Below are positions 45,379 to 46,868 of a DNA stretch of 64,000 bases, in pieces. Each line of letters begins with the position of its first letter. Position 1 is the first letter of the stretch. The notes under the pieces were generated by a model. The model did no database searches. It was not told the DNA's origin and saw only the letters and a list, made by a program, of their open reading frames with translations. Source of the stretch: Gemmatimonadaceae bacterium. Lineage in GTDB: Bacteria; Gemmatimonadota; Gemmatimonadetes; Gemmatimonadales; Gemmatimonadaceae. Location: positions 62,001-126,000 of the forward strand of contig JADZCT010000033.1 in assembly GCA_020851455.1 (NCBI GenBank), in the 5' to 3' direction. The translations under genes and the position numbers were made by a program.

Positions 45379-45420
45379 CCCTCCGGTCGTCGGAAGGATG
45401 ACGCGACCCGGCGGTACCAC
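45379..45420 (-). promoter_or_regulatory. T-box-like core sequence upstream of the SDR-tdh-kbl operon
   Basis: Read on the minus strand, GTGGTACCGC (45420-45411) matches ten bases of the T-box antiterminator core. It is followed by a 7-bp stem, CCUUCCG (45397-45391) with CGGAGGG (45385-45379), including one G-U pair, ~103 nt before the SDR ATG. A Stem I specifier domain is not evident in the ~120 nt upstream. T-boxes sense uncharged tRNA, so one ahead of threonine/glycine genes would make sense, but this is only a motif match. Confidence 0.25.
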
Positions 45421-45633
45421 TTGCGCGAATTCGATTCGTGCACAATTCTGTAGCGAGTTCCATGGCGCGCTGTTGTGAAAGACGAGGCGCCTTGCGATGT
45501 TTATGGGCGTACACGACAACTGAAACGCAAGCAGTCAATGGCTTAGTCGCGCGAAGTGCTGCGCGTTCCGACGGCGCCGCGGAAACGCGGATCCGATCCC
45601 AGCGATCCACCGGGGGATCGCCAGGGCAAACCA

Positions 45634-45647
45634 CTCCTTCACAGGAG
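45634..45647 (+). promoter_or_regulatory. Hairpin masking the miniprotein ribosome binding site
   Basis: CTCCT (45634-45638) can pair with the Shine-Dalgarno AGGAG (45643-45647) across a TCAC loop, leaving 7 nt to ATG 45655. The Shine-Dalgarno itself is ideal in sequence and spacing. The 5-bp stem is short and could open easily, so regulation by it is inferred. Confidence 0.5.
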
Positions 45648-45654
45648 CTCCAAG

Positions 45655-45702
45655 ATGGCTGCCAAGAAGAAGGCGAAGAAGAAGGCGAAGAAGAAGAAGT
45701 AG
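45655..45702 (+). CDS. 15-residue Lys/Ala miniprotein
   Basis: The reading frame encodes MAAKKKAKKKAKKKK, ten lysines in fifteen residues, ending in TAG. It has an ideal AGGAG ribosome site 7 nt upstream and a 16-bp terminator starting 16 nt after its stop, so it looks like a complete gene. The composition resembles the tails of histone H1-like proteins and would bind nucleic acid or other polyanions. It is too short to trust by homology, and another reading frame across the same bases gives a Glu-rich string that I reject. The function is unknown. Confidence 0.65.
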   Translation: MAAKKKAKKKAKKKK

Positions 45703-45718
45703 CCTTCGCCTGCGTAGC

Positions 45719-45753
45719 AGAAAGGGCACTGGCTTTCAGCCAGTGCCCTTTCT
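45719..45753. terminator. Strong bidirectional terminator
   Basis: A perfect 16-bp stem pairs 45719-45734 with 45738-45753 around a TTC loop. The right arm ends CCCTTTCT, giving a partial U run on the plus transcript, and the left arm gives the same on the minus transcript. It lies between the stops of two convergent short genes and should end both transcripts. Confidence 0.85.
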
Positions 45754-45778: not shown

Positions 45779-45946
45779 TCAGGCGACCGCAACCAGCTCC
45801 GGTTCCGCGTCGGGCACCGGGCCCCACACGTAAGCGGCGAACCGCGGGGCGTCTGGCTCCTTCGCGCCGTTCGATATCACGATGCCTACCGGCTCAGCGG
45901 TCTTCTCCGGCGATGGCGTATCGTGGTGGTTCTTTCGCTTGGACAT
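45779..45946 (-). CDS. Hypothetical 55-residue protein
   Basis: The protein starts MSKRKNHHDTPSPEKTAEPV, continues through GIVISNG, and ends in the acidic/Pro stretch YVWGPVPDAEPE then LVAVA. I do not recognise a family. The N-terminus is basic and the C-terminus acidic; there is no signal peptide or membrane helix. Support comes from a GAGG site ~8 nt before the ATG, a TATAGT -10-like element (45972-45967) ~20 nt upstream, protein-like composition in one frame only, and a terminator ~26 nt past the stop. It is convergent with the miniprotein gene. An 8-bp perfect stem (45983-45990 with 45994-46001) lies upstream. Confidence 0.65.
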   Translation of the reverse strand: MSKRKNHHDTPSPEKTAEPVGIVISNGAKEPDAPRFAAYVWGPVPDAEPELVAVA

Positions 45947-46151: not shown

Positions 46152-46868
46152 CTACATCACCGACTTTCGCGCGACGAACGTGCGGGCCGCCGCAGACTCG
46201 CGCATGACGTTGACTTGCCACCCGGTGTACCGATCGCGAAGCTCGTCCTCGGTAAGGGCTACCTGGCCGGCAATGATCGTTTCTACGAGGTGAACTCCGC
46301 CGTCTGCCGTCGCTGACTGGAGCGTTTCGATCACGTGCTTGCGCTCGGCGGGCGTTAGGTCGGCGAAGGCGGCGGGAGTGCAAACCACGGCGGCGATCGG
46401 TCCGTCCGGGTGCCACGCGCTGAGGTCGGTGGCGAGTCCTGTGACGTTCGCCGAGAGCCCGGCTTCGGACGCGGCGGTGAGAACCCGCGCTACTACGGCC
46501 GCCTCCGGCTCGATCGCCTTCACCGCGCAACCGTTCGCGGCGAGGTAAAGCGCCGACTCATGGATTCGCGCGCCCGAAACGACAACCGGTGCGCGCAGGG
46601 AAGCAGGGCCGAGCGCATGGGCAAGCGGAGTGTTGGGGCGAAGGCCCCAGTGCTCCGGGCTCCTGGGTTCTGCGGCGTTGCGCATTCGCCGCCGCCGCCA
46701 GGTATCGAACGAGGGCAGCTTGAGGCGTCGGGCGATGATTCGGTCAACCTCGGCAGCCAGGAGTACGTCCCGCATGCCGAGCTGCAGTTCGCCTTCCATG
46801 TGCTGCGCCGCCAGGTCGGCGATCCTCAGCAGGTGCGTGCGGGGCACTGACTCCTTGTAGGCCTCCAC
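46152..46868 (-). CDS. Methyltransferase-like protein with a degenerate SAM-binding loop
   Basis: This ~238-aa protein has a helical N-terminus and a class I methyltransferase-like fold, but the glycine-rich SAM loop (usually DxGxGxG) reads VVSGARIHESALYLA. The acidic second strand (KAIEPEAAV) and VVCTPAAF region remain. It resembles TehB-like proteins and may no longer methylate. GTG 46868 is the first usual start codon, but the frame is open and coding-like up to 46977 (HEYDAYVERE just upstream), so a non-standard start such as CTG 46922 is possible. A promoter lies at 46974-47001. The gap 45947-46151 downstream holds no gene. Confidence 0.6.
   Translation of the reverse strand: MEAYKESVPRTHLLRIADLAAQHMEGELQLGMRDVLLAAEVDRIIARRLKLPSFDTWRRRRMRNAAEPRSPEHWGLRPNTPLAHALGPASLRAPVVVSGARIHESALYLAANGCAVKAIEPEAAVVARVLTAASEAGLSANVTGLATDLSAWHPDGPIAAVVCTPAAFADLTPAERKHVIETLQSATADGGVHLVETIIAGQVALTEDELRDRYTGWQVNVMRESAAARTFVARKSVM

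Follow-up and report, generated by a model that had tools for sequence, protein, structure and literature searches.

Can a frame of 15 codons, ten of them encoding lysine, be a gene in its own right, and what would control it? Such a frame lies in the window, by which we mean the whole 64,000-nucleotide stretch of Gemmatimonadaceae DNA analysed here. From the letters alone it had been predicted to form a complete tiny gene, and the elements on which the original prediction was built are all present (Table 1): an AGGAG Shine–Dalgarno (SD) sequence 7 nt upstream of the ATG, the lysine-rich frame, and a perfect inverted repeat shortly beyond the stop codon. The 5-bp hairpin that can enclose the SD sequence and the further stem above it were likewise found. 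Together these form a compact unit, running from a structured leader through the SD hairpin and the frame to the 16-bp hairpin, with a predicted fold of −94.1 kcal/mol against −69.1 kcal/mol for shuffles (z = −5.8).

Table 1. Features of the locus, in window coordinates.
Feature	Position	Strand	Details
Promoter-like block	45420–45454	+ (orientation inferred)	CTTGCGCGA-N-CACAATTCTGTAGC; shared by 8 genomes of the genus
Leader hairpin 1	45577–45590	+	CCGCG-GAAA-CGCGG; kept in most same-genus genomes, not family-wide
Leader hairpin 2 (signature element)	45598–45626	+	CCC-A-GCGATCC-[ACCGGG]-GGATCGC-CA-GGG; 3 + 7 bp; family-wide
SD-sequestering hairpin	45634–45647	+	CTCCT-TCAC-AGGAG; CTCCT (45634–45638) pairs with AGGAG (45643–45647)
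ORF, 15 aa	45655–45702	+	Product MAAKKKAKKKAKKKK*; 10 of 15 residues Lys
Terminator-like hairpin	45719–45753	+	Perfect 16-bp repeat, 45719–45734 / 45738–45753; 3-nt loop; 16 nt past the stop
Convergent 55-aa small protein gene	45779–45946	−	Motif EPVGIVISxGxRxExxPRFxAYVWGPVP; kept beside the locus in most relatives
Methyltransferase-like gene	46152–46868	−	Methyltransf_25/TehB similarity weak and sub-threshold; same synteny in most of the family

Conservation and genomic setting of the frame

The unit was matched in 16 of the 17 same-genus genomes searched. At the 15 same-genus loci that we read, the frame encodes a MAAKKK-type Lys/Ala peptide of 14–22 aa, and differences in length amount to whole codons. 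Between same-genus frames of equal length, pS was 0.288 and pN 0.087, on counts that are small and non-independent. The 3′ hairpin keeps its structure within the genus while its sequence has diverged. Because the same anatomy recurs in these genomes and across the family, a chance origin can be excluded. The claim of a complete tiny gene is thus borne out by a conserved frame, by pS in excess of pN, and by conserved SD and 3′ hairpins; the relatives did not reveal an unconserved frame, or lysine codons incidental to a small RNA (sRNA), either of which would have spoken against it. On this comparative evidence from sequence, we conclude that the frame is a real and probably functional miniature protein gene. 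In the window's own genome, a 2.96-Mb assembly, the leader has a single match, the next best having an E value of 1.4, so the gene is single-copy there.

Most of the leader-bearing, Lys-rich genes occupy one shared syntenic locus. A search of related genomes for short Lys-rich frames beside a convergent gene of about 55 codons had been suggested, and this context proved to be conserved next to the Lys-rich frame. The convergent 55-aa protein has no Pfam or NCBIfam match and is probably the product of another unannotated small gene. Upstream of the locus, relatives carry tldD–tldE, an SDR gene or, more distant, kbl–tdh. In many genomes the gene comes directly after the TldD/PmbA peptidase pair tldD–tldE, and in the sister family (f3) it follows a tldE-like end (L028–L032, L035, L079–L082 and L331 for the two arrangements together); at L033 a short tldE-like remnant lies upstream. 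In the window, the pair does not adjoin the peptide gene, its homologues being elsewhere in the genome, and the promoter-like block is found there instead. This block is one of just two strongly conserved blocks 5′ of the leader in an alignment of the upstream region; a simple sigma-70 scan did not recognise it.

The hairpins flanking the frame also recur. Of 79 distinct leaders, 71 enclose the SD sequence in a stem of 4 bp or more, compared with 17 of 110 control starts, and the fifth pair of this stem alternates between T-A and A-T. Beyond the stop codon, 83 of 87 orthologous genes have a stem of 10 bp or more, although its sequence diverges between them. The tail after the 16-bp repeat in the window is a poor U-tract, TTTCTCATGCG (TTTCT), and a simple terminator scan did not call this repeat; the same type of hairpin has a better tail in many relatives.

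A covarying leader and the peptides downstream of it

The upstream stem, hairpin 2, proved to be an RNA element that covaries, keeps its loop invariant and is common to the family, which the original prediction did not include. Covariation occurs at nine of its ten pairs. Over the leader as a whole (68 distinct sequences), 13 of 14 pairs have changed on both sides, in 93 cells against a shuffle mean of 19.6, and 94.8% of cells are paired; none of 500 shuffles matched this result. The alignment was fitted to the model, but shifting the partners by 1–3 columns abolishes the signal. While the stems vary with compensation, the hexaloop reads ACCGG(G/T) in all 70 distinct sequences and its closing pair is always C-G. 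In 744 kb of loci, we counted 88 ACCGGG loops closed by stems of 6 bp or more, nearly all of them at Lys-rich peptide genes, whereas 59 permuted loops gave a mean of 4.5 and a maximum of 14. The leader sits at a fixed position before a K-rich ORF in every strong match, and covarying helices in a fixed place before one class of gene are what characterises a structured cis-regulatory leader.

A scan of the whole window against Rfam returned a tRNA as the sole match above the gathering threshold; near the locus, the weak matches were all sub-threshold and centred on the terminator or the AAG run. Our literature searches found no description of an ACCGGG-loop leader element. The leader is therefore best read as a previously undescribed structured RNA, and is predicted to control expression as a cis element. 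The strict conservation of the hexaloop makes a specific binding partner likely, and its self-complementary CCGG core makes loop–loop dimers possible.

A search with the exact codon pattern from start to stop had matched only 6 of 249 genomes, being too strict on length, and models of the leader were used in its place. The covariance model covered the leader alone and ended at the ATG, excluding the coding sequence beyond it. It found matches in 117 of 179 genomes of the Gemmatimonadaceae, the family that carries the leader and includes Gemmatimonas, and in 31 of its 35 genera. We fetched 80 matches and read the frame downstream. All 61 fetched matches from other genera that scored above 30.5 bits were followed directly by a Lys/Ala/Arg/Gly-rich, H1-tail-like frame of 18–126 aa, and those lacking such a frame all scored 30 bits or less; further loci from a broader search extend the length of orthologues to 137 aa. 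A phylum-wide sample included 104 genomes from the window's family, and the leader was matched in 94 of them; some of the other ten are incomplete. The 11 matches outside the family in that sample were weak, and among those inspected no K-rich gene followed the leader, except for one that precedes a protein with a basic tail. In a sister family (f3), K/A genes of 20–23 aa accompany a similar stem, the loop of which differs and reads ACT-N-N-(G/C), and their 3′ hairpins are strong; in one f3 genome, the K/A gene lies directly 3′ of tldE.

Pattern matches outside Gemmatimonadota are followed by ordinary ORFs and were taken as chance, with the exception of one Kuenenia-labelled contig and two actinomycete basic peptides. 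The contig, labelled Candidatus Kuenenia stuttgartiensis (L173), carries a Gemmatimonas-type copy and is probably mis-binned. In Streptomyces and Kitasatospora (L174, L195), a common basic frame of 19 aa (MARRKKVRFAGRSARRRMK, with a single variant) lies about 50 nt 3′ of a CCACCGGGGG hairpin; this frame is either a conserved tiny gene or a product of chance. Separately, one contig (L274, G255:C184) bears five genes, each with a GC hairpin and an SD hairpin (ACTCC...AGGAGG) upstream; it may belong to a phage or prophage in which one leader is repeated.

The peptide had been likened to a histone H1 tail, and synteny agrees with this comparison: same-locus orthologues in other genera are 30–137 aa long and consist of H1-like KKAAKKGAKK repeats. 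The fraction of K+R in the family orthologues computed is 0.42–0.64, and with ten lysines among its 15 residues the window's peptide has the low-complexity Lys/Ala composition (K+R around 40% or more) of H1-like sequences. Queries of Pfam and NCBIfam with orthologues of 22 aa and about 105 aa gave nothing above curated cut-offs; about 105 aa is also the length of the orthologue in cultured Gemmatimonas. On a tree of the neighbouring methyltransferases, the 14–17 aa forms make up one supported clade within the genus, forms of 18–36 aa are scattered widely, f3 included, and forms of about 100 aa fall at separate places. Given these separate positions and the wide spread of the short forms, the long forms are probably derived. 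The 15-aa peptide is best read as the smallest form of an H1-tail-like polycation family in Gemmatimonadaceae.

Alternative readings of the locus

The locus might instead produce a dual-function or trans-acting sRNA, the hairpins of its transcript targeting other mRNAs and the peptide being secondary. A short transcript with a strong end hairpin would be expected where the gene has its own promoter, and the invariant CCGG of the loop could pair in trans. There is also the precedent of sX6 in Xanthomonas, which was first called an sRNA and later found to encode a protein (PMC5559785). We nonetheless consider an sRNA unlikely: the leader, SD hairpin included, is fixed just 5′ of the frame in every real match, and the coding part grows to as many as 137 aa while remaining Lys-rich throughout, all of which fits a cis-acting mRNA leader. 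To sX6 itself (RF02225), the locus shows similarity over the SD, ORF and terminator at 21.2 bits, below the cut-off of 40, and we keep this sub-threshold match as a lead only. A search with a shorter stretch did not recover it, and the ACCGGG hairpin falls outside the matched part.

Many ribosomal-protein mRNAs have structured leaders, and such a leader, together with the size, charge and apparent single copy of a gene that is near-universal in the family, would suit a tiny ribosome- or RNP-associated basic peptide of THX-type size, with the hairpin serving as an autoregulatory rRNA mimic. We find this improbable, since ribosomal proteins do not range in length from 14 to 137 aa or consist purely of low-complexity repeats, and ribosomal genes were not recognised near the locus. 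That the inverted repeat serves as an operator at the DNA level, and not as an RNA element, is in our estimation very improbable. A dimeric repressor could bind its 7-bp palindrome across the 6-bp spacer, but the half-sites vary freely with compensation around an invariant spacer, which is the opposite of the operator pattern, and the repeat adjoins the SD hairpin, often tens of bases 3′ of the tldE stop codon, with no evident promoter beside it. A lysine-sensing leader peptide (attenuator), as a run of Lys codons ahead of a terminator-like hairpin might suggest, is scarcely credible, given orthologues of up to 137 aa and downstream genes that converge on the locus in the window and in relatives, leaving no co-directional biosynthetic or transport gene and excluding attenuation of a downstream lysine gene.

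Known systems and a proposed mechanism

The C-terminal repeats of AlgP and PhaF in Pseudomonas resemble the peptides described here in their Lys/Ala-rich low complexity, H1-tail-like composition and variation in repeat number (PMC9239181). The H1-like repeats of AlgP affect the spacing of polyphosphate granules (PMC9239181); the role of AlgP/PhaF concerns polyanions or the nucleoid and granules, a precedent for the one proposed here (PMC9239181). In AlgP/PhaF the repeat is a tail on a folded N-terminal domain, whereas here the protein consists of nothing but the tail, down to 14 aa, and the leader is unrelated. Chlamydia Hc1 (HctA) and Hc2 (HctB) are likewise H1-like basic proteins, and Hc2 varies in size through Lys-rich repeats, from 165 to 237 aa (PMC2848022); neither shares a sequence family match with the 14–137 aa proteins. 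Translation of HctA is controlled at the RNA level by the sRNA IhtA (PMC3469542), a trans-acting regulator, while the regulation predicted here would act through a conserved cis leader.

SWIB-domain proteins (PF02201) of the same genomes resemble the peptides in having a Lys-rich tail, placed at the N-terminus, and differ in having a folded SWIB domain. An ACCGGG-type hairpin stands upstream of SWIB genes in at least four genomes (L042, at G000:C49, 57679–57957, minus strand; L150; L276; L314), reading GAGGGAA-ACCGGG-TTCCTTC in the window's genome (G000). Most SWIB genes in the family lack it, so that a regulon defined by this hairpin holds in few genomes only; SWIB genes are a possible, patchy second target of the hairpin system.

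The reading that we prefer, and hold to be likely, is that of a miniature polycation gene whose translation is controlled in cis by its leader and whose transcript is ended by a long hairpin. Its charge and the comparison with AlgP suggest that the product binds nucleic acids or other polyanions; as a short disordered polycation, it would be expected to bind and help to condense DNA, RNA or polyphosphate. The SD hairpin would keep ribosome loading low. The ACCGGG-loop hairpin would be the recognition site of a conserved regulator that would open or close the SD hairpin; a small RNA, a ligand or a protein could play this part, and the protein might be the polycation. The long 3′ hairpin would end the transcript. 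Our comparisons establish the gene and its orthologues, the structure of the leader, the pairing of the SD sequence, the 3′ hairpin and the synteny, whereas transcription, translation, polyanion binding and leader switching are inferences. Autoregulation by the peptide is attractive and may occur. Three observations count against this account: the SD hairpin has just 4–6 bp and 8 of 79 leaders lack it, which weakens the case for switching; the shortness of the peptide makes a specific function hard to prove, and a polycation of 14 aa might bind only weakly; and the leader went undetected in the ten family genomes mentioned above.

The ACCGGG and SD hairpins together could constitute a new class of cis-regulatory RNA across Gemmatimonadaceae, with a variant in the sister family, controlling a minimal 'histone-tail' peptide and perhaps sensing the polycation, a proposal on which we are evenly poised. 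Gemmatimonas accumulates polyphosphate, which makes this polymer a candidate target. If the proposal is true, few natural H1-tail-like proteins would be as small as the 14–17 aa forms, and an RNA that senses the polycation would form an autoregulated, charge-balancing circuit. Because its product ranges in length from 14 to 137 aa, the gene provides a minimal model of a histone-tail-like protein that lends itself to testing, and the new RNA element is one whose ligand can be sought. The gene itself lies below ordinary annotation length cut-offs, yet is near-universal in a family widespread in soil and freshwater.
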